Origin: Methylobacteriaceae bacterium
GTDB taxonomy: Bacteria > Pseudomonadota > Alphaproteobacteria > Rhizobiales > Beijerinckiaceae
Direction of reading: 5' to 3'
DNA length: 37,088 bases
Assembly: GCA_019244955.1 (NCBI GenBank)
Contig: JAFASC010000193.1
Location: 1-37,088 of the forward strand
Part shown: one piece after another, positions 780-19,809 of the stretch
How positions within the stretch are numbered: position 1 is the stretch's first letter
Layout: each line of letters starts with the position of its first letter
Made by a program: the position numbers and the translations under genes
The notes under the pieces: model-generated
What the model was told of the DNA's origin: nothing
Seen by the model: the letters and a program-made list of their open reading frames with translations, nothing else
Database searches by the model: none

Positions 780-1739
780 TTGATCCCGGAGGAGTCTCGG
801 CGGATTTCCGGCCGACGCCCGCTGGCATGGTTTGCGCTATTCGAAAGCGCGGCGTCCAGAAACGGCACGCTCGCGGCGGGAGAGCGCGTGTTGGCGAAGG
901 CAACCAAGATCGCATCAAAGACACGCTATCTCGGCGAGTCGGCGCTGCATTTAGCGAGACGCGCGTCCCATCGTCTCGCCCGCCACGTGCCGCTCACGCC
1001 AAAACGTATGCGCAATTGCGAGCCTCTCGTCAGCTTCACATTCGACGACGTTCCCGAGAGTGCATATCGCATCGGCGCTCCGATCCTGGAAGCGCACGGT
1101 GCGCGCGGGACCTTTTACATCGCTACCGGACTGCTCGGCCACCGAAGCGACTTTTGGACGGTAGCCGGCGCCAGTGAAGTTGCAGACCTTTATCAGCGCG
1201 GACATGAGATCGGGCTGCACTCGCATTTGCATCGGTCGAGTTCCCTCCTTACGGCGGATGAATTCGCCGCCGATCTCAGGCGCAATCGTGAAACGCTGCA
1301 GGATATTGATCCAGGTATCGACGCGCGAAACTTTGCCTATCCCTTCGGTCAATGCACGCTGGCACGCAAGCATCAACTCAATCGGCTGGTGCGCTCGAGC
1401 CGCAGCATCTATGCCGGCGTTAACCGCGGTCTGTTTGACCCCCACTATACGCGGGCAACCGAGCTCTGCGACACACGTCTCACGCCGGAGCGGCTTGAGG
1501 CGCGCTTAGATGAAGCTCAGCGGTCGCGTTGCTGGCTCGTCTTCTGCATCCATGATGTCGCCGATACGCCGAGCCCGCTCGGCTGCTCGCCTGGCTTTTT
1601 GAGCCAAGCGCTCGAAGGCGCGAGGCGACGCGGCATGCGCATCGTCACCGTCGATGCCGCACTCGACCTGATTGCCGGCGCCGCGACGATGCCCCTCCCC
1701 GAAAATCTCATACCTGCCCAGGAGTTCAGCCGTGGCTGA
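780..1739 (+). CDS. Polysaccharide deacetylase (NodB homology domain, CE4)
   Basis: SFTFDDVPESAYRIGAPILEAHGARGTFYIATGLLG, GHEIGLHSHLH, NFAYPFG motifs; start codon uncertain (TTG at 780, or ATG at 1008). Confidence 0.85.
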   Translation: MIPEESRRISGRRPLAWFALFESAASRNGTLAAGERVLAKATKIASKTRYLGESALHLARRASHRLARHVPLTPKRMRNCEPLVSFTFDDVPESAYRIGAPILEAHGARGTFYIATGLLGHRSDFWTVAGASEVADLYQRGHEIGLHSHLHRSSSLLTADEFAADLRRNRETLQDIDPGIDARNFAYPFGQCTLARKHQLNRLVRSSRSIYAGVNRGLFDPHYTRATELCDTRLTPERLEARLDEAQRSRCWLVFCIHDVADTPSPLGCSPGFLSQALEGARRRGMRIVTVDAALDLIAGAATMPLPENLIPAQEFSRG

Positions 1740-2505
1740 GGCGAATGTTCTTTCAAGCATAGAGAAGGTGAGGGTCGGCGGCATCGAGATCGCCCGCCTC
1801 GACCTGAATACCACGGCCGATCTCATGGTGCGGGTCGTACAAAGGCGCTCGCCCGGTCGTGGCCCCTTGAATTTTACGTCCGCGAACGGCGAGGTGATCG
1901 CGCGTTGCCGTTCAAATCCGGCCTTCGCGAAGCTGATTGACGGCGCCGATCTCGTCAGCGCCGACGGCCAACCCCTGGTTTTCGCCTCGATACTATTCGG
2001 TCGCGCAGCATTGCCGGAACGGGTCGCGACAACCGATCTTTACGATCGTGTTGCCGCGCGCGCCGAGCGCTCGGGCGTCACTTTTTACCTTTTTGGCGCA
2101 AGCGATGAGGTAAACTGCAAGACTTATGAAATGACGCGCAAGAAATATCCCGGCCTGCGGATTCTCGGGCGTTCGCACGGTTACCTCACAGGCGCTGCCC
2201 TCGAAGCAAAACTCGACGAGATCAACGCACTCGCGCCCGACATTCTTTGGCTTGCGATGGGCGTGCCGACTGAGCAGCACTTTGTCGAGCGCTGGTCCTC
2301 GCGTCTGTCCAACGTTGGACTGATCAAGACTTCAGGCGGTCTCTTCGATTTCTACTCCGGCACTAAGCCGCGTGCGCCGAAGCGGGTGCAAACGCTCGGT
2401 TTGGAATGGGCATACCGTGTTCTGGTCGAGCCGCGGCGGCTTTTTTGGCGCTACGCCGTTACAAATCCGGTTGCAATCGTACAGCTGATCCGTGCAACGG
2501 CATGA
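1732..2505 (+). CDS. WecG/TagA/CpsF family glycosyltransferase
   Basis: NFTSANGEVIARCRSNPAFAKLIDGADLVSADGQPLVFAS...FLFGAS-type segment...APDILWLAMGVPTEQHFV...GGLFDFYSGTKPRAPKRVQTLGLEWAYRVLVEPRRLFWRY; likely GTG start at 1732 overlapping the deacetylase stop. Confidence 0.88.
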   Translation: MAEANVLSSIEKVRVGGIEIARLDLNTTADLMVRVVQRRSPGRGPLNFTSANGEVIARCRSNPAFAKLIDGADLVSADGQPLVFASILFGRAALPERVATTDLYDRVAARAERSGVTFYLFGASDEVNCKTYEMTRKKYPGLRILGRSHGYLTGAALEAKLDEINALAPDILWLAMGVPTEQHFVERWSSRLSNVGLIKTSGGLFDFYSGTKPRAPKRVQTLGLEWAYRVLVEPRRLFWRYAVTNPVAIVQLIRATA

Positions 2506-4295
2506 GCGTGGGCATCCTCCCTCCGCCGCGCATGGTGCCGGTCACCTTCGGCGCTTGTGCCGGGTGGCTGCATCCAGCTAGCGGAAAACATGGAGTTCTT
2601 CTTTGCGGCGCTCTCAACCATGAGATATTGCCGCTCTATCAAAGCTGGCACGCTCTTGCGGCGATGATCGCGGCTGCCGGATTGTCGGTGTTGCGCTTCG
2701 ATTACCATGGGACGGGAGATTCCCTCGGCGACGACCGCGAACCTGGGCGCGTCGAGGCTTGGCGTCAGTCAATTCGGGCGGCAGCGCAGTTCATGCGCGA
2801 GGAGTGCGGCTTCGAGACGCTGGACCTTGTCGGCATCCGGCTCGGCGCAACCTTGGCTAGCCTCTCGGCTGCGGAGATCCGCGTCGAACGGCTGGTTGCG
2901 ATCGCGCCCGTCGCGAACGGCCGCACCTATATTCGCGAGGCGCAGGCGCGATCCAGGATGCTTTGCAGTATCTGGCGGCTTGGCAACGCGAGCCTGACGC
3001 ATGGCGAGATCGCCAATGACGGATTTATTATCACGAAGGAAACAGCATCTGATATTGCACGCCTTGATCTCACCTGCGTGAGGACGAGGCCGGCGCGCGA
3101 GGTTTTGCTGGTCGGCGAAACCTCCAGTCTCATCCATAAGCTTCAAGAAGCATACGAGACTGCCGGTTGCCATGTGACGCGCAAAGACTTTACCGGTTTC
3201 GCTGCTCTGATGGATTCAGCGACACTCGCGCAAATTCCACTCAAGGATTGGCAGGCGGTAGTTTCCTATTTGACGAAAGCCCGCCAGGCGGCGTCAAACG
3301 TTCCGGTTCTGCCTAGAAGCTTCGCCCTGCAAGCGTCGTCGTTTCATGAAGAACGCATGATCTTTGGCCACGACGACCGGCTAGCGGGGGTGCTCTGCCG
3401 GCCGGTGGCGCAAACACCGGTCGCGACAATTCTCTTTCTTAACACCGGCGGCAATCCGCACTTCGGCTGGGGCCGCATGAGTGTCGAACATGCGCGTGCG
3501 CTCGCCGCGCCCGGTGTCGCCTCGCTGCGCCTCGACATCGCCGGTTTAGGAGACGCCGCTCCGCTCGCCGGCAGTCCCCGCGCGGCGCTATACCGGAAGG
3601 AAAGCATCGCCGATGTTCGCGAGGCGTTGGAACTTCTCGAGCAACGCGGGCTTTCCAATTTCACGCTTGTCGGCCATTGCAGCGGCGCCTGGCTGGCGCT
3701 CAATGCCGGACGCGCGGATCCGCGCGTTCGCGGTCTTTTCCTCGTCAACCTGCAACGTTTCATCTGGACGGGCGATGAAGACCTCGAAGCATTGATGGCG
3801 CAAGCCTATCGCGCCACAGACTCTTACCTCCAGGAGATCGGATCGGGCGCAATGTGGCAGCGCCTGCTCAAAGGTCAGATCAATTGGGCGCGCCTGCCCG
3901 GGATCGCCCGCGCAATGCTCCGCCGCCCCGCCGCGCGTATCGGGAACCGGTTATGGCGAATCGCGGCGCGGCTTCTCGGGATCGAGACGCAAACCGCGCG
4001 GATCAGCGGGATGCTAAGGCACCTTTCGGAGCGCGGCACGGACACTCTACTGGTTTACAGCGAGACCGATCCTGGCCGTGAGGAACTCGCGCGCCACTTT
4101 GGTGCGTCGGGATGCCGGCTGCGGCTTCCGCGCCTTTGGATCGCCACGATCGAGAACGCAGACCACGACATCACATCGGAAGAGGCACGCCGCGCTTATT
4201 TCGAGTTGCTCTCCAAGCATGTGGACTGCGCGACCGGCGCGATCCCTGCGAAGCCCGCGTCTGAGCGGCCCCAGATCGTGGCGCAAGCCGCCTGA
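2502..4295 (+). CDS. Tandem double alpha/beta-hydrolase protein resembling fused exosortase-A-system hydrolases
   Basis: Two hydrolase domains: LRFDYHGTGDS...LVGIRLGA and LRLDIAGLGDA...LVGHCSGA...DHDI; ATG at 2502 overlaps the upstream TGA (ATGA). Confidence 0.8.
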   Translation: MSVGILPPPRMVPVTFGACAGWLHPASGKHGVLLCGALNHEILPLYQSWHALAAMIAAAGLSVLRFDYHGTGDSLGDDREPGRVEAWRQSIRAAAQFMREECGFETLDLVGIRLGATLASLSAAEIRVERLVAIAPVANGRTYIREAQARSRMLCSIWRLGNASLTHGEIANDGFIITKETASDIARLDLTCVRTRPAREVLLVGETSSLIHKLQEAYETAGCHVTRKDFTGFAALMDSATLAQIPLKDWQAVVSYLTKARQAASNVPVLPRSFALQASSFHEERMIFGHDDRLAGVLCRPVAQTPVATILFLNTGGNPHFGWGRMSVEHARALAAPGVASLRLDIAGLGDAAPLAGSPRAALYRKESIADVREALELLEQRGLSNFTLVGHCSGAWLALNAGRADPRVRGLFLVNLQRFIWTGDEDLEALMAQAYRATDSYLQEIGSGAMWQRLLKGQINWARLPGIARAMLRRPAARIGNRLWRIAARLLGIETQTARISGMLRHLSERGTDTLLVYSETDPGREELARHFGASGCRLRLPRLWIATIENADHDITSEEARRAYFELLSKHVDCATGAIPAKPASERPQIVAQAA

Positions 4296-4296
4296 C

Positions 4297-5316
4297 TCAG
4301 GACCCCTGGCGCTCCCATGCATCAGGCCAAAAAATGTCCTTCCATGAGGCGAGCTTTTCCTTCACCCGCTTCTGCCGGAACAGGAAGTCGGAAATGAACT
4401 GGATGCGCAGCGGCGTCGCGGAAAATTCGAAGCGCGGATCGGAGACGATGGCGAGAAGCTCGTCGACGCTTTCGTTCGCCTTGTGGACTTCCTTCCACAG
4501 CGAAACCGCCGCGCGCTTGTCGGCGTTGATGATTGCGATCGACTCATCAAGCGCCGCAAGAATCGCCTTCTGCAACTGAGGATTCTGGTCACGAAAGCGG
4601 CGCGACCCGACCAGCATCATCTGCGTGAACGAGCCGCCAAACACCTGATGACTATCAAGCACCACGTGGGCGCCCCGCAGGTGCAAGCCGCGCTCGGTGA
4701 ACGGCGGCACCGCGACATGCGCCGTGATCGCCGCCCGCCCCATGCCTGCGGCTAGCGACGCGAGCGCATCGGGATGGCCCATCGAGACGGTGAGCGGATC
4801 GAGGCGCTCGGCGTCACCGAAAGTTTTTTCCGCTTCGATCTGCAGCATCACCGCGTTGAAGGAGACTTTTGCCGCCGGCACCGCAATGCGGTCGGCAGGC
4901 GTGAAGTCCGCGATCGTCCTCACCGCGGGATTAATCGTGTAAAGCGTCATCGGCACGTTGCTCATCGTGCCGAGCGCGCGGATCTCATTGGGTGTGCCGC
5001 GCGTTTTGTCCCAGACGGTGAGCAGCGGCGGCGGCCCCGCCGTGCCGAAATCGGCCGAGCCCGACAATAGTGCGTCGTTCACCGCTGCGGCGGAGTTAAT
5101 GACTTCGGCTTTCGCGTCGATCTTGCCAAGGCCCATGCGTTCGGCATGTTTTGCGATCAGCCCTCCATTCGTCATCACATCGACAGGCAGATAAAGAAGG
5201 CCGCGCTGCTGCACAATGCGCACGTTACGTGCTTCCTGGGCGCGCAAGATTGTCGGCGTGGCAATGAGGCTCGCTGCGGCCGTAAGCGCATGACGCCGCG
5301 AAATTCTGTAGATCAT
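4297..5316 (-). CDS. ABC-type substrate-binding protein (NMT1/SsuA-like), Tat-like signal
   Basis: MIYRISRRHALTAAASLIATPTILRAQ signal, then VRIVQQRGLLYLPVDVMTNGG...VNDALLSGSADFGTAGPPPLLTVW. Confidence 0.8.
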   Translation of the reverse strand: MIYRISRRHALTAAASLIATPTILRAQEARNVRIVQQRGLLYLPVDVMTNGGLIAKHAERMGLGKIDAKAEVINSAAAVNDALLSGSADFGTAGPPPLLTVWDKTRGTPNEIRALGTMSNVPMTLYTINPAVRTIADFTPADRIAVPAAKVSFNAVMLQIEAEKTFGDAERLDPLTVSMGHPDALASLAAGMGRAAITAHVAVPPFTERGLHLRGAHVVLDSHQVFGGSFTQMMLVGSRRFRDQNPQLQKAILAALDESIAIINADKRAAVSLWKEVHKANESVDELLAIVSDPRFEFSATPLRIQFISDFLFRQKRVKEKLASWKDIFWPDAWERQGS

Positions 5317-6944
5317 GCGCTTTCCCGTCTAATCACCGGCGCCCCGACGCGCTCGATCATCACATTGACACAGGCCGGTTTGCCGCTGGCAAGAGCCCGG
5401 TGCAGCGCCGGCGCAAGATCATCTACACGCTCCACGAACTCGCCGTGACCGCCGAGGGCCTCGACAACCTTATCGTAGCGCGACGGCAGAAGATCGCAGC
5501 CATGCGCCCGCGCCTCGCCATACGAGCGCAGCTGGATCTGATATTCCGCGTTCCACGTCGCGTCGTTGCCGATCACTGCTACAAACGGCAGATCGCGGCG
5601 CACGGCAGTGTCGAATTCCGCCATGTGAAAACCGAAGGTGCCGTCGCCCATCACCGCGATGACTGGTGCGCGGGGCTCGAACAGACGCGCGGTCAGTGCA
5701 AAGGGAATGGCCGATCCGATCGAGCCGGCCACCCCATTGATCAGCCGCCGCGGCGCCTCGAGGAGTGCCTGAGCCCATTGGCCGATCTCGCCGCCGTCGC
5801 ACACGAAGACGGCTTCCTCGTCGCCTGCGAGCAACGGCTGAATTGCGCGGCAGAAATCGATCGGATGGACCTTCGCGTCGCGTGGCCGCGGCGCGTCCCA
5901 TTCCGGCGGGCGGTAGGCGAGCGCCGTCCCGACTTGGTGAAACCAGTCAAGGCGCCGATCCGAACGGTGGGCCATCTCTGAAAGCACCCGTGCCGCCGCA
6001 TGCGGCTCCGCGATGGTGCTGAGCATGAGCCGAGCGCCCTTTTCACCTCGAACGCGGTCAAGCATGGCGCGATCCGGATCGACGGCAATAAAGCGGCACC
6101 CAGGATCGACAAAGGGCGGCTCAGCGAAGCGCAAGGTGAAATCGTGCGGCTTGCCGAGAAGCACGAGAAGATCGGCCTGCCGCAACATTTCGGCAAGGGC
6201 GCCGAGACTCGGATCTTTGATCCCGCGTGGACTCTCCATGAGCACCGCCGGCACGCGCGTCGACACAGCAACCGAGCGCAGGAGCGCGCGGCCGCCGATA
6301 TCAGCCATCGCGGCCCCTGCCAGAATGAGCGGCCGCTCTGCCTCTTCGAGGGCCGCGAGGATCGCGTCCGCACGATCACCCGGGAGGACCGTCCGCGACG
6401 GCTCGAAATCCGCTTCAGCGGGCCAAAGCCTCGCGCCCTCTTCAACCTTCATCTCAAGCACATCGAATGGCAGGCTGACATGTACCGGCCCCGGGCGGCC
6501 ACTGCGCGCGATGGAGACGGCGTGCGCGATGTCATGACCGAGTCCCTCCGCGCTCGCAGCGACCCATGCGGCCTTGCATAAGGGCGCGGCGGTTGCCGCC
6601 TGTTGCATCTCTTGGAAGGCGCCGCGGCCGATCTCGCCAATCGCAGCATGGCCCGAGAGCAGAATGAGCGGCGATTCCGCCGCTTGCGCCGTCGCAAGCG
6701 CGCCGATCGCATTAGCGTGGCCGGGGCCGGCGGTCACGAGCGCAAGTCCCGGCATGCCGGAAAGCCGGCCCCAGGCGTCTGCCATATGCACGGCGGCGCC
6801 CTCATGACGCACATGAATGAGATTGAGACGCGTGCCAATCGCCGCATCGAAGATCGGCATGATGTGGTTGCCGGAAAGCGTGAAGATGTTGGTCAGCCCG
6901 GCGCGATCGAGCGCACGTGCAAGGATATCGGCGCCGCGAATCAT
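5313..6944 (-). CDS. Thiamine diphosphate-dependent enzyme (acetolactate synthase/decarboxylase-like)
   Basis: RHEGAAVHMADAWGR, GPGHANAIGALATAQ, GDGTFGFHMAEFDTAVRRDLPFVAVIGND; start ATG at 6944 overlaps upstream stop; overlaps downstream start by ATGA. Confidence 0.85.
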   Translation of the reverse strand: MIRGADILARALDRAGLTNIFTLSGNHIMPIFDAAIGTRLNLIHVRHEGAAVHMADAWGRLSGMPGLALVTAGPGHANAIGALATAQAAESPLILLSGHAAIGEIGRGAFQEMQQAATAAPLCKAAWVAASAEGLGHDIAHAVSIARSGRPGPVHVSLPFDVLEMKVEEGARLWPAEADFEPSRTVLPGDRADAILAALEEAERPLILAGAAMADIGGRALLRSVAVSTRVPAVLMESPRGIKDPSLGALAEMLRQADLLVLLGKPHDFTLRFAEPPFVDPGCRFIAVDPDRAMLDRVRGEKGARLMLSTIAEPHAAARVLSEMAHRSDRRLDWFHQVGTALAYRPPEWDAPRPRDAKVHPIDFCRAIQPLLAGDEEAVFVCDGGEIGQWAQALLEAPRRLINGVAGSIGSAIPFALTARLFEPRAPVIAVMGDGTFGFHMAEFDTAVRRDLPFVAVIGNDATWNAEYQIQLRSYGEARAHGCDLLPSRYDKVVEALGGHGEFVERVDDLAPALHRALASGKPACVNVMIERVGAPVIRRESA

Positions 6945-8338
6945 CGGACTTGCTCGCACGTATCCAGCACCGACTGAAGCGATCTGCGGCACGCAAAGAT
7001 TGCTCCGCTCGCAAGAAGTGCAATAGCGGTCATGAGTGCGAAGAAATGCATCTTGTCCATGCTGCTCCAGAAGCTTCCGAGCCAGCCGGCGGCGAAATTG
7101 CCGACAAAGCTCGTCGCAAGCCACGCGCCCATCGTCACCGAGAGATAGCGTGCTGGCGCGACCTGCGATACGAGCGACAGACCGATCGGCGAAATGTAGA
7201 GTTCGCCGATCGTCAACACGATGAAGTAGAGAAAGAGCCAGAGCCAGCTCGCTTTCTCGCTTCCCGCATACCAGGCTGCCGCAATCAGGGTGGCGTTGGC
7301 GAGCGCAAGCCCGAGACAGCCGAGCGCCATCTTGCTAATCGTCGACGGCTCGCTGCCGCGCCGGCTTTGATATGCCCATAAGGCCAGCAGCGGCGGTGTG
7401 AAGGCGAAAATCATCAGTGGATTGAATGCCTGGAACCAGGTCGCCGGCACTTGGAACCCCGTCAGCGGCACTGTGCGATCCGTGAAATCGTCGGCCCAGA
7501 GCGCGATAGTATTGCCTTGCTGTTCGTACACGGCCCAGAAGAGCGTCACGGGTAGAAACAATACTGCCAGCGCGGCAAGCCGGTGCGTCTCCGTGGGACT
7601 CAGCGCCGCCCTTACGCCGGGATGCGGCGGATCGCTGGGCGGCAGGTGTGGCGCCGCCGCCAGATAAATCACAAGCCCGATCGTCATGCCAATTCCCGCG
7701 GCGGCGAAACCATAGTGCCAGCCGACCTCCTCGCCCAGCGTGCCGCAGACGAGCGGAGCCAGAAACGCGCCGAGATTGATGCCGACATAGAAGATCGAGA
7801 ACGCCCGGTCGCGGCGTGAGTCACCCGGGGCATAGAGGTCGCCTACCTGCACGGAGATGTTCGGCTTGAACGCACCGTTGCCGAGGATGAGCAGCAACAT
7901 TGCCGGGAGGAAAAGATGCTCGAAAGCCATCATGAAATGTCCGACAGCCATCGTTCCCGCGCCAATGATGATGGTGCGGCGGCGGCCGAGCACGCGATCG
8001 GCGAGAAGTCCGCCGAAAATCGGCGTGAGGTAAACTAGGGCCGTGTAAAGGCCGTAGATTTGCGACGAGAACGGCTGGATATCCAGCGGACCGAATACCG
8101 TCTCGAGGGTGCGCTTCAGCGCCGCAAGGCCTGCAACATTCTCGGGGCGCCCCTTCAGCAACAGATACTTGGTCATATAAAGAACGAGCAGCGCGCGCAT
8201 TCCGTAATAGGAAAACCGCTCCCACATCTCAGTCGCGCAGAGATACGAGAGGCCACGTGGGTGGCCGAAAAAATCGGCTTCACGCCCGCGCTGTAAAGGA
8301 GCGTTCAGAAGGCTAATGATGCTTGGCCCGCACCTCAA
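6941..8338 (-). CDS. Proton-dependent oligopeptide transporter (POT/PTR2 family)
   Basis: [36 protein letters not shown]...[19 protein letters not shown]...[17 protein letters not shown]...[28 protein letters not shown]. Start unclear; in-frame TTG at 8338 is a guess, the ORF track extends to 8629 by running into the P450 gene. Confidence 0.88.
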
Positions 8339-9533
8339 CAGGCAGGCTCGATAAGCCGCGCAGCGTATTATTGTAACGGCGCTTGGGTTCGCCCACGATC
8401 TCGATCGTCTCGACGCGCTTCGCCAACGCCGTAAGAACGAGCTCGCCCTCGAGCCGCGCCACCGCCTGCCCGACGCAGCCGTGAATGCCGCTGCCGAGCG
8501 CGACGTGGCCCGCGACACGCCGTCTGATGTCGAATTTATCAGGGTTTTGCCAGCGCCGCGGATCGCGGTTCGCTGCGGCCATGAACAGCAACACCTTCTG
8601 GCCTTCGCCGATCGCGACGCCGCCAACATCTACGGCGCGGGTCGTCGTGCGGAAGAAAACCTGCGAGGGAGATTCAAGCCGCAAGGTTTCTTCAAAGGCG
8701 TTTCGCGCGAGCGTCGGCTCGCCGCGCAAGAGCTGCCACTGATCGGGATTACGCGCGAGGCAATCCATGGCCGCCCCGAGGGCGTTGACGGTTGTATCAA
8801 CGCCGGCCGAGAGGAAGGAGCGCATCAGCATCGGCGCTTCCTCGTGCGTGATCTCGCCGCGGTCGGCCGCCGCGAAAATCTCTGCGCCGAGTCCATCCGG
8901 CCGCAGAGATTCGCGCGCGCAGAGTCTCATGATCTCCTGCCGCACGCGATCGCCGTCGCGCATCGCCTCCTCGAAAAGGTAATTGCGCGGCCCGAAGCCT
9001 GTGAACACCATATTCCCGTACGGCAATAAAAATTCCCGTCCGGCATCGGGTAGGCCGATCGCATCGGGAAAGACTTTCAAGGGATAGGCCTCGGCCAAGT
9101 CTTTGACCGCCTCGAAACGGCCGCGCGCCACGAGTCTATCCACAAGCTCTTCCGCGTAGGCTTCGAACGGCGCGCGCAGTCGCTTGATCGTTCCCGGCGA
9201 GAGAATGCGTGCGATCACCGTTCGGGTTTTCGTGTGATAGGGAGGATCAACCTCCAAGAGCAGGCTGCGCGGACGCCACGGCTCTTCCTTGGCGAAATCG
9301 CTCAGGCCCACGCCGCGGCCGGAGCAGTACGTCTGCCAATCGTTAAATGCAGTGTGGACATCGTCATGGCGCGCCATTCCCCAGACCTGATAGCGGGGAA
9401 TCCAGACAACGGGCCCCGCCTCGCGCATGGCCTCGTGGGCGGGATAGGGATCGTCGAAGAATTCGCGGCTGAACGGATCGAAGTCAAATGTCGGCACGTC
9501 CGGAGTGCGCGTCGCGGTTGCGGCTTGCGGCAT
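8313..9533 (-). CDS. Cytochrome P450, CYP199-like
   Basis: FDPFSREFFDDPYPAHEAMREAGPVVW...CSGRGVGLSDFAKEEPWRPRSLLLEVDPPYHTKTRTVIARILSP...heme loop ALGSGIHGCVGQAVARLE. Confidence 0.9.
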   Translation of the reverse strand: MPQAATATRTPDVPTFDFDPFSREFFDDPYPAHEAMREAGPVVWIPRYQVWGMARHDDVHTAFNDWQTYCSGRGVGLSDFAKEEPWRPRSLLLEVDPPYHTKTRTVIARILSPGTIKRLRAPFEAYAEELVDRLVARGRFEAVKDLAEAYPLKVFPDAIGLPDAGREFLLPYGNMVFTGFGPRNYLFEEAMRDGDRVRQEIMRLCARESLRPDGLGAEIFAAADRGEITHEEAPMLMRSFLSAGVDTTVNALGAAMDCLARNPDQWQLLRGEPTLARNAFEETLRLESPSQVFFRTTTRAVDVGGVAIGEGQKVLLFMAAANRDPRRWQNPDKFDIRRRVAGHVALGSGIHGCVGQAVARLEGELVLTALAKRVETIEIVGEPKRRYNNTLRGLSSLPVEVRAKHH

Positions 9534-9624
9534 ATTCCCACTCTAGCGGTTCTTTGCCAGGCAGATTCGCATGTGGGAAAGCGATGTCAATGCGCGCCCG
9601 AGAGGCTCCTTGCGGGCTGATGCC

Positions 9625-10788
9625 TCAATGATTGCTTCGCTGCCCAGGCAGAATGCCCATGCCCTTGGCGATTATCGTCAGCATGACCTCGTCGGCACCG
9701 CCGCCGATCGAGCTTAGGCGGCCGTCGCGATACATCCGCGAGATTTCGCTCTCGTTCATAAAGCCCATGCCACCCCAATATTGCAGGCAGGCATCGTTGA
9801 CCTCGCGAATAAGGCGGCCGGCCGTCAGCTTCGCCATCGAGGCGAGTTGCGTCATGTCCTGCCCGTTCATGTAATCGTTGACCGCGCGGTAGACGAGCGA
9901 GCGCAACAGCTCGACCTTAGTCTGCAGCTCGGCGAATTTGAAGTGCACGACCTGATTGTCGATGATCGGCTTGCCGAACGCCATGCGGCCGGCGGTATAG
10001 TCGATCGTCATCTGGATCGCGCGCTCCATCCCGATGAGATGGCCGGCGGCAGCCCAGATGCGCTCCTCCTGGAATTGCTGCATCTGATAGATGAAGCCCA
10101 TCCCCTCCTCGCCGATGCGATACCGTTGCGGCAGGCGCACGTCATCGAAATAGATTTGAGCGGTATCGGAGGCGCGCATACCGAGCTTGTCGAGCTTGCG
10201 GGCGATCTCGACGCCCCTCGTCTTCATCGGCAGGCAGATCAGCGATTTGTTGCGATGGACCGGGCCGTCGCTCGTGTTGGCGAGCAGGCACATCCAGTCG
10301 GCCTGCGTGCCGTTCGTCGTCCACATCTTGCCGCCGTTGATGACGTAGTCGCCCCCGTCCTTGCGCGCAGTGGTCTTGATCGAGGCGACGTCGGAGCCGG
10401 CGCCGGTCTCCGAGACGCCCAGGCACGAGACATAGTCGCCGGCGATCGAGGGCCGAAGAAATTCCTCGCGCAATTCATCCGAGCCGTAACGCGTCAGCGC
10501 CGGCGTCGCCATATCGGTATGAACCCCAATCCCCATCGCCACGCCGGAACATTTGTTCGCACCGAGCGCCTCACAAAATGCAATTTCATAGGAATAGTCG
10601 AGACCGAGTCCGCCGAATTTCTCCGGCTTGTTAATCCCCAGAAAGCCCTGCTCACCCATTTTCTTAAAAACATCGTGCGCCGGGAAGATGCCGGCCTTCT
10701 CCCATTCCTCGGCGTGCGGGTTGATCTCGCTCTCGACGAATTTCGTCACCGAGCGCATAAGCTCGCGGTGCTGTTCGGTATAGATCAT
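9625..10788 (-). CDS. Acyl-CoA dehydrogenase (AtuD/citronellyl-CoA dehydrogenase-like)
   Basis: CLGVSETGAGSDVASIKTTARKDGGDYVINGGKMWTTNG, DACLQYWGGMGFMNESEISRMYRDGRLSSIGGGADEVM. Confidence 0.9.
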   Translation of the reverse strand: MIYTEQHRELMRSVTKFVESEINPHAEEWEKAGIFPAHDVFKKMGEQGFLGINKPEKFGGLGLDYSYEIAFCEALGANKCSGVAMGIGVHTDMATPALTRYGSDELREEFLRPSIAGDYVSCLGVSETGAGSDVASIKTTARKDGGDYVINGGKMWTTNGTQADWMCLLANTSDGPVHRNKSLICLPMKTRGVEIARKLDKLGMRASDTAQIYFDDVRLPQRYRIGEEGMGFIYQMQQFQEERIWAAAGHLIGMERAIQMTIDYTAGRMAFGKPIIDNQVVHFKFAELQTKVELLRSLVYRAVNDYMNGQDMTQLASMAKLTAGRLIREVNDACLQYWGGMGFMNESEISRMYRDGRLSSIGGGADEVMLTIIAKGMGILPGQRSNH

Positions 10789-12650
10789 GGGTCGATCCTT
10801 GAGGCGAGTTCGGCCGCGAACTTTCGGTCCACCGGCACGGGAAAATCGAGCAGCATTTGCGCAAAGCCCTTGCCCTGCGGATCGTTGCGGAGCGAGGCAA
10901 TGCCGCCGCCGCCAAGCACGTCGTGCAAGACGAAGTTGATTGCCCCGATGCCGGGCACGTCGAAGCGCGCGACCGGCTCGCTTGTTTTGCCGTCGAGATG
11001 ATGCGCGAAAAAGTTGGCAACGGCATCCGTTGTAAGCGCGCGGCGAATGATGGGCAGGTATTCGGGCTTGCGAGCGATAACGCCGATATTGGAATTGTTG
11101 CCTTTGTCGCCGCTACGCGCCCATGCCAAGGCGATGAGCGGGACGGTCGTGCCACCCTCATCCTGAGGAGATTGCGAGGCAACACCCACCTCCTCATCCT
11201 GAGGAGCATGCGCAGCATGCGTCTCGAAGCATGAATCGCTCGCCGCGTCCTTCGGGACGGTCCTTGGGCCGTTCTCCGAATTGGAGAATGGCATTTGCAT
11301 CCCCTCCATCTCGATCGCGATCGGCACCTTATGCTTCGGCACCAGACACGAAAACAGCCTTACGACCGGCGACACCTTAGCGCGATTGCCGCCCATGCCG
11401 GTAATCCCCGGCGACATAGAGGTGCCGGAGGAGGTGAGCTCGCGCACCATGAGTTCGAGCGGCTTCGGGTCGGGGTGCTTGGCCGCAAGCTTCAGCACGA
11501 CTTCGCGGGCTGCGCGTGCGCGCGAATGCGGACCGTAGGACGCCTCTGCTCCGAGCACTTCGACACTCGTTTCCGTGTAAGGTGCGGCGTTCGTCGCCTT
11601 CAAAATGATGCCGCAGCGGCGGATGACGGCGTCGGCGACTTTGTCGGCCTTGCGCGCCGCATCGATGCCGCCAATCGCCAGATACGCGCCGACGCGATAG
11701 CCATCCTGGTATGTCGCGCTGACTTTGTATGTGTCGGTCGGCGCGCGGCCTTTTGCATTGGAGACACGCACCCGGTCCGGTCCGATCTCGTCGATGCGCA
11801 CGCCTGAGAAATCGCAGGTCACGTCAGGCAGGACATAGGCGCGGGGATCACCGATCTCGTAGAGCATCTGCTCGGCGACCGTGGCGAAGTTCACCAAACC
11901 GCCGGTATCTGGCGGTTTCGACAGGACAAAGCTGCCGTCCGGCCCGATATCCGCGATGGGATAGCCGATATCGGCCCAGTCGCCGGTCTGTTCCCAATCC
12001 GTGTGCAGACCGCCGGTCGCCTGCGCGCCACATTCGAGGATGTGGCCGGCGAGCGAACCGGCGGCAAGATGATCGAACTCGTCGGCGCGCCAGCCGAAAG
12101 CATGGATGCAGGCGCCGAGCGTCACCGCGCTGTCGACACAGCGCCCGGTGATGACGAGGTCGGCGCCTTGAACGAGCGCCGCTGCGATGGGACCTGCGCC
12201 GAGATAGGCATTGATGCTCCATAAGTTTTCCGGCATCTCGGCGCCGGAAAACATTTCGCGCGTGCCGGCGGCGCGGAATTCAGCAGCGCGATCGAGGAGA
12301 TCGTCGCCGAGCACGACTGCGATTTTCATCTTGACGCACGCTTCCGTGAGCTTCGCCTCGAGGGCACGCGCGCAGGCGCGCGGATTGACCCCACCGGCAT
12401 TGGAAATGATCTTGATCTTGCGTTCGCTGATCGCGCGTGCATGCCGCGCGATCGTGCTGACGAAGTCGGTGGCATAACCCAGCGAGGCATCCTTTGCTCG
12501 CGCCCGCGCCATGATCGACATCGTAATCTCGGCGAGATAATCGAAGACGATGTAATCGAGATCGTCGGCGCGCAAAAGCTGCGGCACGGCAATCGAAGAA
12601 TCGCCCCAGAAGCCGGACGCGCCGGCGACGCGGATGGTGTCGCGCCTCAC
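10785..12650 (-). CDS. atuA: AtuA family (DUF1446) protein with C-terminal AtuA-like domain and repeat-derived linker
   Basis: GTG start at 12650 (GTGA overlap with biotin subunit stop): VRRDTIRVAGASGFWGDSSIAVPQLL...DYLAEITMSIMARAR...SNAGGVNPRACA...GRCVDSAVTLGACIHAFGW; C-terminal ALAWARSGDKGNNSNIGVIAR. The ORF-track extension to 13154 lies over the biotin subunit gene. Confidence 0.88.
   Translation of the reverse strand: MRRDTIRVAGASGFWGDSSIAVPQLLRADDLDYIVFDYLAEITMSIMARARAKDASLGYATDFVSTIARHARAISERKIKIISNAGGVNPRACARALEAKLTEACVKMKIAVVLGDDLLDRAAEFRAAGTREMFSGAEMPENLWSINAYLGAGPIAAALVQGADLVITGRCVDSAVTLGACIHAFGWRADEFDHLAAGSLAGHILECGAQATGGLHTDWEQTGDWADIGYPIADIGPDGSFVLSKPPDTGGLVNFATVAEQMLYEIGDPRAYVLPDVTCDFSGVRIDEIGPDRVRVSNAKGRAPTDTYKVSATYQDGYRVGAYLAIGGIDAARKADKVADAVIRRCGIILKATNAAPYTETSVEVLGAEASYGPHSRARAAREVVLKLAAKHPDPKPLELMVRELTSSGTSMSPGITGMGGNRAKVSPVVRLFSCLVPKHKVPIAIEMEGMQMPFSNSENGPRTVPKDAASDSCFETHAAHAPQDEEVGVASQSPQDEGGTTVPLIALAWARSGDKGNNSNIGVIARKPEYLPIIRRALTTDAVANFFAHHLDGKTSEPVARFDVPGIGAINFVLHDVLGGGGIASLRNDPQGKGFAQMLLDFPVPVDRKFAAELASRIDP
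11157..11234. repeat. Rhizobiales-type palindromic repeat (one partial and one longer copy) inside the atuA-like CDS
   Basis: ctcatcctgaggag at 11157-11170, then ctcatcctgaggagcatgcgcagcatgcgtctcgaagcatgaa from 11193; matches the copy at 36507-36547. Confidence 0.75.
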
Positions 12651-14590
12651 GCTGCGTCCTCCATCTTGACGATCACCAGGGGATCGCGCGTCGCGACCTG
12701 CGCACCGGGTGCAACGGCGACTTTTTCGACGGTGCCGTCGGCCGGCGCGATGATCTCGTGCTGCATCTTCATCGCTTCCAGAACCGCGACGATGTCGCCG
12801 CGCGCGACGCGCGCGCCCTCCGCAACGCGCACGGCAATAACAGACCCGTTCATCGGCGCGCGCAAGATGCCGTCCGCCGCGGCTTCGGCCGCCTGGGGCA
12901 GCGCGAAGGTGCGATCTTCGAACCGCAGCACCTGGCGGCCGAGATCGAGGTGAAGCGTGTCGTGGACGCGAGCGAAGCGGAGGCTGCGCACGTGGCCGTT
13001 CATTTGATAGTGCAGGCGATCTTGCGTTCTCTCGAGAATGCGGAGGCGGGCGCTTTGCCCCTCCCCCGTCACGTTCCAGTACGCACCGTCGCGCGCCGCG
13101 TGCAGGGTCTTTTCGCTCTCGCCGATCGCAAGCTTTATCGGATGCTGCAGCCAATGCGAGGAATGCCAGCCCTGCCCCGGCCCGTCGCTGAAAAGCGCGG
13201 CGGCGATGGCGAGTGTTTTGAAATCCGGCGGTCCGGCCGGCACAAGCCTCATGTGCTTGCTGATGAAGTCGGTGGTCACCTCACCGCTCACGAACGCGTC
13301 GGTGTCGAGCACCTCGATCAGGAATTCCTTGTTGCTTGTGACGCCGAGCAGCACCGTGTCCTCAAGCGCCGCCAGGAGCCGCCGCCGCGCCTCCTCGCGG
13401 TCGTCGCCATGGGCGATGATTTTCGCCAGCATCGGGTCGTAGAACGGCGTCACGACTCCGCTGGGCATGAGCCCGTGGTCGACGCGAACGCCCTCGCCCG
13501 CCGCAGGCTCGAACAGATGCATCGTGCCTGTCTGCGGCAGGAATTTCTGGCGCGGGTCTTCGGCGTAGAGCCTTACTTCGATAGCATGGCCCTCGAGCCG
13601 CACGTCGTCTTGCGCGAGCGGCAGGGCCTTGCCCTCGGCGACATCGAATTGCAGCGCGACGAGGTCGAGTCCGGTAACCATCTCTGTCACCGGGTGCTCG
13701 ACCTGCAGGCGCGTATTCATCTCGAGGAAATAGAACTCGCCCTTCCCGTCGAGCATGAACTCGATCGTGCCGGCGCCGACATAGTGGATCGCTCTTGCCG
13801 CCTGCACCGCGGCGGCGCCCATGCGCGCGCGTAACTCCGCATTCACGGCCGGCGACGGCGCCTCCTCGACCACCTTTTGGTGCCGGCGCTGCACCGAACA
13901 ATCGCGCTCGCCGAGATGGATGACGTTGCCATGCGTGTCGCCGAACACCTGGATTTCGACATGCCGCGCATCGAGAATGGCGCGCTCCAGCAACAGGCGA
14001 TCGTCCCCGAAAGCGTTCTTCGCTTCCGAGCGGGCCGTGCGCAGTGCGCCTGCAACCGCGCCCGCTTCTTGCACGAGCCGCATGCCGCGCCCGCCGCCGC
14101 CGGCCGCGGCTTTCACCATTAAGGGAAAGCCGATGCGCGCCGCCTCGTGTGTGAGGCGCGCGTCGGATTGGCCGCCATCCTGGTAACCCGGTACGCAGGG
14201 CACGCCGGCGGCAATCATACGGCGCTTGGCTTCTGCCTTGTCGCCCATCATGCGGATCGCCTCTGGCGAAGGGCCGATGAAGATCAGCCCCGCGTCGCCG
14301 CACGCCTGCGCAAAACCGGCATTCTCAGAGAGAAAGCCGTAGCCGGGATGAATCGCATCGGCGCCGCTCTGTTTCGCGGCATCGATGATTTTGTCGATCG
14401 CGAGATAGGATTGCGCCACCGGCGCCGGGCCGATCGCCACCGCTTCGTGCGCAAGCCGCACATGCAGCGCGTCTTGATCTGCCTCGCTATAGACGGCAAC
14501 CGTGCGATAGCCCTTGGCATGCGCGCTGCGGATGATGCGGCAGGCGATCTCGCCGCGGTTCGCGATCAGCACTTTGCGAAAGCGGCTCAC
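12647..14590 (-). CDS. Acyl-CoA carboxylase biotin carboxylase/biotin carrier subunit (AtuF/LiuD-like)
   Basis: FRKVLIANRGEIACRIIRSAHAKGYRTVAVYSEAD...HPGYGFLSENAGFA...EMNTRLQVEHPVTEMVTG...VLEAMKMQHEI biotinylation site; GTG at 14590 overlapping upstream stop. Confidence 0.93.
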   Translation of the reverse strand: MSRFRKVLIANRGEIACRIIRSAHAKGYRTVAVYSEADQDALHVRLAHEAVAIGPAPVAQSYLAIDKIIDAAKQSGADAIHPGYGFLSENAGFAQACGDAGLIFIGPSPEAIRMMGDKAEAKRRMIAAGVPCVPGYQDGGQSDARLTHEAARIGFPLMVKAAAGGGGRGMRLVQEAGAVAGALRTARSEAKNAFGDDRLLLERAILDARHVEIQVFGDTHGNVIHLGERDCSVQRRHQKVVEEAPSPAVNAELRARMGAAAVQAARAIHYVGAGTIEFMLDGKGEFYFLEMNTRLQVEHPVTEMVTGLDLVALQFDVAEGKALPLAQDDVRLEGHAIEVRLYAEDPRQKFLPQTGTMHLFEPAAGEGVRVDHGLMPSGVVTPFYDPMLAKIIAHGDDREEARRRLLAALEDTVLLGVTSNKEFLIEVLDTDAFVSGEVTTDFISKHMRLVPAGPPDFKTLAIAAALFSDGPGQGWHSSHWLQHPIKLAIGESEKTLHAARDGAYWNVTGEGQSARLRILERTQDRLHYQMNGHVRSLRFARVHDTLHLDLGRQVLRFEDRTFALPQAAEAAADGILRAPMNGSVIAVRVAEGARVARGDIVAVLEAMKMQHEIIAPADGTVEKVAVAPGAQVATRDPLVIVKMEDAA

Positions 14591-15405
14591 GCTTTTTCCA
14601 CCCAACGCGCCGGGCGTTTTTCCAGGAATGCGGCGAGTCCCTCCCGCCCCTCTTCACTGCGCAGCGCAGCGCTGAATGCGGTCGCAGCTTCGTCCGTGAG
14701 TTCTTCCGGCCGCCGGCCGACGGTTGCCAGCAAGAGGCGCTTCGTGGTGGCATTCGCACCCGGTGCGCAGCGCCCTACGTTTTCGTAGATCGCGTTCAAC
14801 GCGGCCTGCAGATCGTCGTCACGCGGACAGAAATGGTCGACAAGACCGATGGCAGCGCCCTCCTGCCCGTCGAAGCGCGCGCCGGTCAGCGCCAGCCGCC
14901 GCGCGTGCTTCAGGCCAATGCGCGCCACCACGTAGGGCGCGATCTGCGCCGGCGGAATGCCGAGGCCGGTCTCGGACAGAGCGAAGCGCGCGCGCGGCGT
15001 CGCCAGCACGATGTCGGCGCATGAGGTGAGGCCCAGACCGCCGCCGAACGCCGGTCCGTCGACGATGGCGATGACGAGCATCGGATGCGCGTTCAGCTTC
15101 GCATAGAGCTCGCCGCCGCGACGGTTGGCGGTGAACAGCGGATCGGTCTCGTCGAGCTTCAGATCGGCTTTCAGCCGCGCGAGATTGCCTTTCAGATTGG
15201 CGCCGGCGCAGAAGGCGCCGTTCGCGCCCTGCAACACAAGCGCGCGGAGCGAGCGGTCGTCGTGCGTTGCCTCGAGAATGGCGAAAAGGTCGGCCACCAG
15301 CGCGTCGGTCATGGCGTTGCGCGTCGCCGGATCATCGATCGTGGCGATCATGCGAAAGCCGCGGCGCTCGAGACGCACCACCTTTGTTGCCGGCAACTCC
15401 GCCAT
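14587..15405 (-). CDS. Enoyl-CoA hydratase/isomerase family protein (AtuE/LiuC-like)
   Basis: MAELPATKVVRLERRGFRMIATIDDPATRNAMTD...GANGAFCAGANLKG...DGPAFGGGLGLTSCADIVLATPRARFALSETGLGIPPAQIAPYV. Confidence 0.9.
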   Translation of the reverse strand: MAELPATKVVRLERRGFRMIATIDDPATRNAMTDALVADLFAILEATHDDRSLRALVLQGANGAFCAGANLKGNLARLKADLKLDETDPLFTANRRGGELYAKLNAHPMLVIAIVDGPAFGGGLGLTSCADIVLATPRARFALSETGLGIPPAQIAPYVVARIGLKHARRLALTGARFDGQEGAAIGLVDHFCPRDDDLQAALNAIYENVGRCAPGANATTKRLLLATVGRRPEELTDEAATAFSAALRSEEGREGLAAFLEKRPARWVEKA

Positions 15406-17024
15406 CACATCCTCGCAACGCCAAACGTGTTCGGATGTAGGACGCGGCGCTCGCCTTCCATGGCCGTGGCGAGGCAAAAGGACAATACGCGCCGCGTGTC
15501 CCGCGGATCAATCAGCCCGTCGTCCCAGAGCCGCGCGGTCGCAAAGAGTGCAGTCGACTCGCGGTCGTACGCCTTCACGACGCGCTGAGACATCGCATCG
15601 AGCTTGGCGCGATCCGGGCTCTCGCCGCGGACGCGCGCACCTTCCTCGGCGACGATCGTCAAGACGCGCGCCGCCTGCTCGCCACCCATCACCGAGATGC
15701 GATTGTTCGGCCAGGAGAAGACGAAGCGCGGGCCGAAGGCGCGCCCGCACATGCCGTAATGGCCGGCCCCGAACGAGCCGCCGATCTGCAGCGTGAGTTT
15801 CGGCACGGTCGCATTGGTCACCGCTTGGATCATCTTCGATCCGTGCTTGACGATGCCGGATTCCTCCGCCTCAACGCCAACCATGTAGCCGGTCGTATTT
15901 TGCAAAAAGACGAGCGGCGTGCCGGACTGGCAGCACAATTGGATGAATTGCGCCGCCTTGCTCGAGCCATTGGAATCGATCGGCCCGTTATTGGCAAGAA
16001 TGCCGATCGGCTGCCCCTCGATCGCGGCGTGGCCGCACACGGTCGCGGCGCCGTAGAGCGGCTTGAAATCGAGGAAATCGGAATCGTCGACGACGCGCGC
16101 GATCACTTCGCGCACCTCGTAGGGCTTGCGATAGTCGGTCGGCACGATACCGAGAAGTTCCTCTGCATCATAGCGCGGCGGCTTGTAGGCGCGCGGCGTG
16201 CGAAAAGGCAGATTGTCGTTCCACGCCATTTTTGCGAGGATATCGCGGCCGATGCGCAGCGCATCGGAATCGTCCTCAGCGAGATATTCGCCGAGACCTG
16301 TCGTCACCGCATGCATCTCCGCGCCGCCGAGCGCCTCCTCGTGCGCAATCTCGCCGGTGGCCGCTTTCAAAAGCGGCGGCCCAGCGAGAAACACCTTCGA
16401 GCGCTTGCGCACGAGCACGATGTAATCGGCAAGCCCCGTCTGATACGCGCCACCGGCCGTCGACGAGCCGTGCACGATCGAGATCACGGGAATGCCGGCA
16501 GCGGACATGCGCGACATGTTAGCGAACGTACCGCCGCCCTTCACGAACATTTCCGCCTGTAGGAAAAGATTGGCGCCAGCGCTTTCGACGAGCGACACAT
16601 AGGGTAGCTTGTTTTGGAGCGCGATCGACTGCACGCGCAACGCCTTCTCGACGCCCATCGGATGCGAGGCGCCGCCCTTGATGCCGGAATCGTTGGCAGT
16701 AACCACGCAACGCACGCCGGAGATGAAGCCGATGCCGGCAATAGAGCCGCCGCCGTACACATTATCCGTGCCGTCGTCCTCGTTCATGCCGAGGCCGCAG
16801 AGCGTCGACAGCTCAAGATACGGCATGTCGCGATCGAGCACGAGGCTCACGCGTTCGCGCGGCAGCAATTGTCCGCGCCAGCGGAACTTTTTCTCCGCCC
16901 GGTTCGACGTCTCGCGCACCTTCGCTTCGAGCGCGCGGAATTCGTCGATCAAGGCGAGATGTGCCGCGCGATTGGCGCGGTAGGCCTCACTCTCCCTGAT
17001 GATCGCAGAGTTAAGGACAGGCAT
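15405..17024 (-). CDS. Acyl-CoA carboxylase carboxyltransferase (beta) subunit, AtuC/geranyl-CoA carboxylase-like
   Basis: GGGSIAGIGFISGVRCVVTANDSGIKGGASHPMGVEKALR...LVESAGANLFLQAEMF...VHGSSTAGGAYQTGLADY...QNTTGYMVGVEAEESGIVKHGSKMIQAVTNATVPKLTLQIGGSFGAGHYGMCGRAF. Confidence 0.93.
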   Translation of the reverse strand: MPVLNSAIIRESEAYRANRAAHLALIDEFRALEAKVRETSNRAEKKFRWRGQLLPRERVSLVLDRDMPYLELSTLCGLGMNEDDGTDNVYGGGSIAGIGFISGVRCVVTANDSGIKGGASHPMGVEKALRVQSIALQNKLPYVSLVESAGANLFLQAEMFVKGGGTFANMSRMSAAGIPVISIVHGSSTAGGAYQTGLADYIVLVRKRSKVFLAGPPLLKAATGEIAHEEALGGAEMHAVTTGLGEYLAEDDSDALRIGRDILAKMAWNDNLPFRTPRAYKPPRYDAEELLGIVPTDYRKPYEVREVIARVVDDSDFLDFKPLYGAATVCGHAAIEGQPIGILANNGPIDSNGSSKAAQFIQLCCQSGTPLVFLQNTTGYMVGVEAEESGIVKHGSKMIQAVTNATVPKLTLQIGGSFGAGHYGMCGRAFGPRFVFSWPNNRISVMGGEQAARVLTIVAEEGARVRGESPDRAKLDAMSQRVVKAYDRESTALFATARLWDDGLIDPRDTRRVLSFCLATAMEGERRVLHPNTFGVARM

Positions 17025-17823: not shown

Positions 17824-19809
17824 CTATTCCGCCGCTGCGCGCATTCCCTCCGCCCGCTCCCGCCGCACATCCGGCGGTGTTGCCTCCTCCGTCAACGCCC
17901 GCAGCGCCTCGTCAAAACTCATCGACGTCTGCGCCTGCGAGCCGAGGCGCCGGATCGACACGGTACGCTCTGCCGCCTCCTTACGGCCGACGACGAGCAG
18001 CACGGGAATCTTCGCCAGAGAATGCTCGCGCACTTTATAAGTGATCTTCTCGTTGGTCAGATCGCCCTCGACCCGCAGCCCCTGTTTGCGCGCCGCCGCA
18101 ATCATCTCCCGCGCATAATCGTCGGCCTCCTGCGTGATCGTGCAGACGACCGCCTGCACCGGTGAGAGCCAGAGCGGCAGATGGCCGGCGAAATGTTCGA
18201 TCAGAATGCCGATGAAGCGCTCCATCGAGCCGCAGATCGCGCGATGGATCATCACCGGCACCGTCTTCTCGCTGTTCGGCGCGATGTAGAAGGCGCCGAA
18301 GCGTTCCGGCAGGTTGAAGTCGACCTGCGTCGTGCCGCATTGCCATTCGCGGCCGATCGCATCGCGCAGCACGTACTCGAATTTCGGCCCGTAGAACGCG
18401 CCCTCGCCGGGATTTATCGACGTCGTCACGATATTGCCGTGTCGCGCCTTAATCTCGTCGAGCACACGGCGCATCACCGCTTCGGCGTGATCCCACATCG
18501 CGTCGGTGCCGACGCGCTTGTCCGGCCGCGTCGACAGTTTCACGACGATGCGGTCGAAGCCGAAATCGTTGTACACCGAGAGAATGAGATCGTTGATCTT
18601 CATGCACTCCTCGGCAAGCTGATCCTCGGTGCAGAAGATGTGCGCGTCGTCTTGGGTGAATGCGCGCACGCGCATGATGCCGTGGATGGCGCCCGACGGC
18701 TCGTAGCGGTGCACGAGACCGAATTCTGCCATGCGCAACGGCAATTCGCGATAGGAGCGCAGGCCGTGTTTGAAAATCAGGACATGACCGGGACAGTTCA
18801 TCGGCTTTAGCGCGAACGTGCGCTCGTCATCGGGATCGTCGCCCGCCGGCTTCACCATGAACATGTTGTCGCGATACCAGCCCCAATGGCCCGACGTTTC
18901 CCATAACGCTGTGTCGAGCACTTGCGGCGCGTTGACCTCTTGGTAATCGCCGGCGAGGCGGCGGCGCATATAGGCGATCAACGTCTGGAACAGCGTCCAG
19001 CCCTTCGGATGCCAGAAGACCGTGCCCGGCCCCTCTTCCTGAAAATGGAAGAGGTCCATCTCGCGACCCAAGCGGCGATGATCGCGGCGCTCGGCCTCTT
19101 CGAGCTGCTTTAAATACGCGTCGAGCTCTTCCTGGCGCGCAAACGCCGTCGCGTATATGCGCGACAGCATCGGATTGTTGGAATCGCCGCGCCAGTAGGC
19201 GCCGGCCACCTTCATCAGCTTGAACGCGCTGCCGATCTTGCCGGTCGACGTCATGTGCGGACCGCGGCAGAGATCGAGCCAGTCGCCCTGCTTATAGATT
19301 TTCAGATCCTGGTCGGGCGGGATTGCGTCGACGAGCTCGACCTTGAACGCTTCGCCATGCGTCTCGAACCAGTTGCGCGCTTGTTCGCGCGACCACACTT
19401 CTTTGGTGAACGGCTTGTCGCGCGCGATGATCTCGCGCATGCGCTTTTCGATTGCCGGAAAATCCTCCGGCGTGAACGGCGCGTTGCGAAAGAAATCGTA
19501 ATAGAAGCCGTTCTCGATGACCGGCCCGATCGTCACCTGCGTCCCGGGAAAAAGCCCCTGCACCGCCTCCGCCATGACATGCGCGGCATCGTGGCGGATT
19601 AGTTCGAGCGCCCGCGGGTCGTCGCGTGAGATGAACTCGATTTTGGCGTCGCGGTCGATCGCGTCCGCGAGATCGGCGAGCGCCCCGTCGCGGACCATGG
19701 CGACCGTGCGCCTGGCGAGGGAGGGCGAGATCGATTTCGCGATGTCGAGGCCGGAAATGCCGGGCTCGTACGCGCGCGAAGCGCCATCGGGAAAGGTGAT
19801 GTTGATCAT
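17824..19809 (-). CDS. thrS: Threonyl-tRNA synthetase
   Basis: [28 protein letters not shown] (TGS), [94 protein letters not shown]. Confidence 0.98.

Follow-up and report, generated by a model that had tools for sequence, protein, structure and literature searches.

A proteobacterial double alpha/beta-hydrolase with a cysteine nucleophile elbow that co-occurs with amino acid:[carrier-protein] ligases and may act in surface-polysaccharide biosynthesis

Introduction

The amino acid:[carrier-protein] ligase Bll0957, which we take to load glycine, is the relative in the PDB of the ligases considered here. It belongs to family NF005479, and solved structures exist (PDB 3mey/4h2w). An independent gene-neighbourhood analysis (PMC2922099, 2010) proposed that the amino acid is ligated to a cell-surface sugar and that a linked uncharacterised ORF, Atu2574, acts as the ligase. 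By its place in the operons described below Atu2574 would correspond to DUF1839, for which a papain-like Cys enzyme, possibly glycan-processing, has been predicted (PMC10318531). A literature search, largely without subscription papers, found no paper naming the amino-acid recipient for these ligases.

A second group of described proteins is formed by hydrolases 2 (TIGR03101) and 1 (TIGR03100) of the exosortase-A system, which are encoded by separate genes. Their nucleophile elbows, of the types given in the earlier note on this DNA, are mostly GLR[SL]G in hydrolase 2 (one protein, L151, has AVRHG) and mostly G[LN]CD[AG] in hydrolase 1. Here we analyse a fused double hydrolase encoded in a 37,088-nucleotide stretch of DNA (the window), for which the database records examined give only the annotation 'alpha/beta fold hydrolase'.

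The gene and its two domains

The features of the locus are as follows.

1008 to 1739, plus strand: polysaccharide deacetylase (PF01522, 5.8e-18); start uncertain, possibly 780
1672 to 2505, plus strand: WecG/TagA/CpsF-family glycosyltransferase (PF03808, 1.2e-47; TIGR00696, 107 bits against a cut-off of 69); the true start may be 1732
2502 to 4295, plus strand: fused double alpha/beta-hydrolase, 597 aa (100 nonredundant homologues; AlphaFold)
2535 to 3275, plus strand: domain 1, residues ~12-258, a putative hydrolase-2-like pseudoenzyme (best match TIGR03101; secondary structure; alignment)
2832 to 2846, plus strand: degenerate nucleophile elbow GIRLG, with Arg113 at 2838-2840 (sequence, family alignment, model)
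3276 to 3338, plus strand: inter-domain linker, residues ~259-279 (AlphaFold model; variable-length region in the alignment)
3342 to 4232, plus strand: domain 2, residues ~281-577, hydrolase-1-like and competent as judged by its residues (best match TIGR03100; alignment; model)
3672 to 3686, plus strand: nucleophile elbow GHCSG, with Cys393 at 3678-3680 (sequence, family alignment, model)
4068 to 4070, plus strand: Asp523, the presumed acid of the triad, which comes directly behind strand 514-520 (Asp in 95 of 100 homologues)
4161 to 4166, plus strand: Asp554-His555, presumed triad His (His in 99 of 99 non-gapped homologues)

The ATG of the hydrolase overlaps the TGA of the WecG-type ORF as ATGA (1672-2505 / 2502-4295), the arrangement that the earlier note had described as translational coupling. 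The same note described two fused alpha/beta-hydrolase domains, and this is borne out by PF12697, which matched two stretches of the protein (51 bits against a Pfam cut-off of 26.3), and by a confident two-domain AlphaFold model (pLDDT 90.9, pTM 0.91) built from a 79-row alignment. Fold and elbow are recognised in both halves, and the protein belongs to the alpha/beta-hydrolase superfamily. The Foldseek matches listed (best 50) are to alpha/beta-hydrolase chains with a single domain, for the most part Ser esterases and lipases, and no solved double-domain relative is evident among them; one match among the many esterases was the Vibrio harveyi myristoyl-ACP thioesterase (1tht). A chance or artefactual ORF is ruled out by conservation across the 100 relatives, by a same-genus homologue (69% identity, elbows GMRLG/GHCSG) and by a paralogue on contig C129 of the same genome (elbows GLRLG/GTCSG). 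The fused hydrolase is a member of a widespread proteobacterial two-domain family.

The elbow positions proposed earlier are exact for the pentapeptides GIRLG and GHCSG, the longer strings LVGIRLGA and LVGHCSGA spanning 2826-2849 and 3666-3689 respectively. In the model the domain-1 elbow consists of strand 106-112, a turn and helix 114-126, and the nucleophile position is occupied by an arginine (Arg113), as had been read from the sequence. Arginine is not a constant of the family at this position, which holds Arg in 61, Gly in 38 and Ser in 1 of the 100 nonredundant homologues; a required role for Arg as a rule of the family is ruled out by the glycine cases. Domain 1 therefore looks like a pseudoenzyme. 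Behind strands 7 and 8, where the triad Asp and His would be expected, neither residue was seen, and in a 21-row alignment the triad sites of domain 1 likewise showed no conservation of His or Asp. Gly115, Gly140 and Glu146 are invariant in the 100 homologues. This half would be a catalytically dead hydrolase whose role is most likely structural or that of a docking partner.

Domain 2 has the corresponding topology (strand 387-392, turn, helix 394-405), and the cysteine at its elbow, also read correctly before, is invariant (100 of 100 homologues). From the conserved residues and the elbow topology we propose that domain 2 is an active hydrolase-fold enzyme with a Cys-His-Asp triad. The idea of a pseudoenzyme-enzyme pair is accordingly supported, the nucleophile being absent from domain 1 and the Cys, His and Asp of domain 2 being conserved.

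Genomic context of the fused hydrolase

Occurrence of the ligase was compared with that of the fused protein in two genome samples. Among 60 relatives, the ligase is present in all 16 genomes that encode the fused protein, against 21 of 60 overall (p = 1.4e-10, Fisher test, which ignores phylogeny); in a sample of 299 genomes across the phylum the values are 12 of 12 against 21 of 299 (p = 3.4e-16, by the same test and with the same disregard of phylogeny). Taken together, 24 of 24 distinct genomes having the fused protein also carry the ligase. The converse fails: seven ligase-bearing loci that are negative for the fused gene (L185-L191) represent a second ligase branch, ~50% identical, and no DUF1839, GH2 or fused gene was recognised in them. 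In some of these seven loci there are hydrolases of other kinds and another small gene that is carrier-like.

The usual operon comprises a carrier protein, an acyl-CoA-dehydrogenase-like protein, the ligase, DUF1839, GH2 and the fused hydrolase, and this loader operon together with the hydrolase is conserved in Rhizobiales, Azospirillum and Burkholderiales (an annotated example is AZL_RS30835-30860 of Azospirillum sp. B510, where AZL_RS30835 is the carrier protein, AZL_RS30845 the ligase and AZL_RS30860 the hydrolase). The one-strand order from carrier to fused hydrolase recurs in Azospirillum, Alsobacter, Pararobbsia and Phreatobacter loci and in the relatives G008, G009, G010 and G019, and the same gene set is found in convergent layout in many Rhizobiaceae. 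Context was counted within at most 10 kb of the fused gene in 80 loci (79 fetched from named genomes, with L040 left out, plus the window), whose genes were called by a GC-position script that gives approximate starts. Carrier protein was found in 53, ligase in 44, DUF1839 in 40, a GH2-like gene in 48 and the acyl-CoA-dehydrogenase-like gene of the operon type in 45 of these loci (46 clustered, one being the unrelated dehydrogenase of the window). Carrier and loader were absent from 27 of the 80 within the DNA examined, several of these loci being cut by contig ends. In seven Paraburkholderia/Cupriavidus loci an amino-acid adenylation enzyme lies at position -2 and a carrier protein at -1 of the fused gene. 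All seven enzymes have FDPS as their A4 motif, including the Asp that binds the amino group, and the one scanned exceeds the cut-off of TIGR01733. Two unrelated amino-acid loaders therefore adjoin the same hydrolase family.

Polysaccharide genes form the other recurrent context. The deacetylase of the window has as its nearest NCBIfam match the oligosaccharide deacetylase HfsH (NF050820, 1.8e-41), below cut-off at 142 of 400 bits. A close MAG (L036, 69% identical protein) extends the window locus, with glycosyltransferases, a Wzy-like ligase/polymerase, Wzx, GH10 (L036:7071-8150), deacetylase, WecG and the fused hydrolase. The pairing of WecG with the hydrolase is also found in Methylobacterium, in loci that have Wzx, GH5, GT4 and GT2 as well. 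Wzx, Wzc, GT or WecG genes occur in 35 of the 80 loci. These observations, together with the window locus itself, support the EPS setting suggested in the earlier note. In two genomes of one genus (G058, G305) the double hydrolase is joined in frame to a Wzx flippase (L159:11388-14699 and L170; Pfam was checked on L159, the other being near-identical by sequence). Other apparent long N-terminal fusions (L009, L098, L070, L074, L047, L041 and others) were judged by eye, on their N-terminal sequences, to be frame extensions. Four Paraburkholderia genomes have one fused copy beside Wzx and another beside a loader.

The source genome (G000) also has two fused copies, one in the window and one on C129 beside an LpxB-like gene (by eye). 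No carrier protein or ligase is present near the fused hydrolase at the window locus. The ligase of this genome (NF005479, 498.6 bits against 357; G000:C46:3812-4711) lies on contig C46, in the order partial dehydrogenase-like gene, ligase, DUF1839, GH2, 4HBT thioesterase; the contig breaks off within the dehydrogenase-like gene, on the side on which the carrier gene would be expected. A carrier gene over cut-off was not found in the G000 draft; in the same-genus genome G001 carrier, dehydrogenase-like gene and ligase are together. It may be noted that the 4HBT-type thioesterase (L154:1-365) follows GH2 at the position that the fused hydrolase has in relatives. Downstream in the window, the minus-strand genes at 4297-17024 (SsuA-like binding protein, TPP enzyme, POT peptide transporter, cytochrome P450, acyl-CoA dehydrogenase, AtuA, biotin carboxylase and carboxyltransferase) resemble a cluster for the catabolism of acyclic terpenes or branched acyl compounds, supplemented by a P450, and a threonyl-tRNA synthetase is encoded at 17824-19809 on the same strand.

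Proposed function and alternatives

The genomic associations support the view that the fused hydrolase takes part in the biosynthesis of surface polysaccharide and acts there on an (amino)acyl group bound to a carrier. We infer that the substrate may be aminoacyl, that the reaction would be transfer rather than hydrolysis and that the acceptor would be a sugar. A dedicated carrier protein would hold the aminoacyl group, or an oxidation product of that group, as a phosphopantetheine thioester, from which Cys393 would take it over. The resulting Cys-thioester would then be transferred to a sugar intermediate that is lipid-linked and still cytoplasmic, prior to export by Wzx. The outcome would be an amino-acid-decorated polysaccharide. 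In the source genome the loader operon lies on another contig, and the window copy would act on what the deacetylase/WecG/Wzx locus makes; as a speculation, the deacetylase might supply the free amine acceptor. This is the model that we prefer; for it as a whole, from the capture of the carrier-bound (amino)acyl group by Cys393 to its transfer onto a glycan intermediate, we consider the chances evenly balanced.

The main rival is that domain 2 is a housekeeping (type II) thioesterase that clears mis-loaded or stalled aminoacyl or acyl groups from the carrier, while DUF1839 does the transfer; hydrolysis would give the same genomics. Alpha/beta-hydrolases beside carrier proteins are often thioesterases, and the structural match to 1tht, one among many esterases, agrees with this. 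DUF1839, usually encoded in the same operon, is a rival transferase in its own right, being a predicted papain-like Cys enzyme (PMC10318531), and PMC2922099 prefers it, predicting the linked ORF as the ligase. However, copies of the fused hydrolase in EPS loci occur without carrier protein or DUF1839, and in one genus the protein is fused to Wzx. In addition the invariant nucleophile is Cys instead of Ser, and in general enzymology a cysteine rather than a serine nucleophile favours acyl transfer over hydrolysis. We rate the thioesterase explanation as rather unlikely.

Alternatively, the protein could be an esterase or deacylase that trims ester groups of the polysaccharide at the window locus, unconnected with carrier proteins. 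Such an activity would suit the fold, the Ser esterases that are the nearest solved structures among the matches listed, and the deacetylase and WecG neighbours, but it is at odds with the invariant Cys nucleophile and with the family-wide ligase co-occurrence. Moreover, no signal peptide is apparent by eye in the fused hydrolase, which is thus presumably cytoplasmic. An esterase of this kind appears quite improbable to us.

Relation to the exosortase-A system

The earlier note had likened the two halves to the exosortase-A hydrolases 2 and 1. TIGR03101 is indeed the best NCBIfam match of domain 1 (2.3e-17, 63.4 bits; whole protein 84.9) and TIGR03100 that of domain 2 (1.4e-16, 60.6 bits; whole protein 94.5), but both remain far under the respective cut-offs of 202.75 and 168.45. 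In the tree the N halves join hydrolase 2 in 98% and the C halves hydrolase 1 in 99% of bootstrap trees, with an outgroup of four Ser hydrolases only, two of which are on long branches. The fused-protein halves form their own clades beside, and not inside, the two hydrolase groups. Kinship therefore stands and membership does not (63 and 61 bits against 203 and 168): judged by profiles and tree, domains 1 and 2 are distant kin of hydrolases 2 and 1. A fused hydr2-hydr1 of an exosortase genome, G180 (L164, G180:C5; 620-aa frame, elbows GCRFG/GLCDG), groups with the separate hydrolase genes in the tree, so fusion probably arose at least twice.

Exosortase (PF09721) was not found in the source genome, a 91% complete draft, nor in the remaining 15 genomes that encode the fused protein among the 60 relatives; within that sample it occurs only in G046 and G059, neither having the fused protein. 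In the 299-genome sample exosortase is present in 51 genomes and in 1 of the 12 with the fused protein, and is not enriched (p = 0.70). Three exosortase loci (L162, L163, L165) do have a carrier-protein-like gene followed directly by hydr2 and then hydr1 (Pfam checked for L162). An AMP-ligase and a PLP-decarboxylase-like gene lie near these genes. The ligases of exosortase loci lack the FDPS A4 motif, so their substrate may differ. A place in the exosortase-A/PEP-CTERM EPS system, as fused hydrolases 2 and 1, draws on the best profile matches, the elbow types, the phylogeny, the order of the true hydr2 and hydr1 genes behind a carrier-protein gene and the fusion in G180, but with scores at about one third of the cut-offs, separate clades and exosortase in 0 of 16 and 1 of 12 fused-protein genomes (source genome included in the former) it is hardly credible in general, and for the source genome, a 91% complete draft in which no exosortase was detected, it is largely refuted.

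Comparison with known systems

The fused hydrolase is a concrete candidate for the step that hands on carrier-loaded amino acids, perhaps to a sugar polymer, and since this candidate has one predicted active residue, the acceptor question becomes directly testable. It resembles the exosortase-A hydrolases 2 and 1 in having an Arg-type followed by a Cys-type elbow in the same order, an adjacent carrier protein and an EPS context. It differs in being one chain, far below both profile cut-offs, and in the residues after the Cys (S/A-G, as opposed to D-A in hydrolase 1). The fused protein also hints that hydrolases 2 and 1, where separate genes behind a carrier-protein gene encode them in exosortase-A loci, act as a complex.

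With the Bll0957-type ligase pathway it shares its location, being last in or beside the operons, and the ligase co-occurrence in 24 of 24 genomes. However, the one neighbourhood analysis found (PMC2922099) does not list it among the components in the text consulted, and the second ligase branch (7 loci) is without DUF1839, GH2 and fused hydrolase. The D-alanylation of teichoic acid by the Dlt system (DltA/DltC) is similar in that a carrier-loaded amino acid is passed to an envelope polymer, and DltA and DltC are matched, below cut-off, by the adenylation enzyme and the carrier protein encoded in the loci beside the fused gene; the transferase fold is different, the hosts of the fused hydrolase are Gram-negative and transfer is here proposed to be cytoplasmic. 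We tentatively suggest, with somewhat more doubt than belief, that these proteins could constitute a hitherto unassigned transferase family, a Cys-nucleophile pseudoenzyme-enzyme fusion that would move carrier-bound amino acids onto lipid-linked polysaccharide units, as a Gram-negative counterpart of Dlt and the acceptor step for Bll0957-type ligases.
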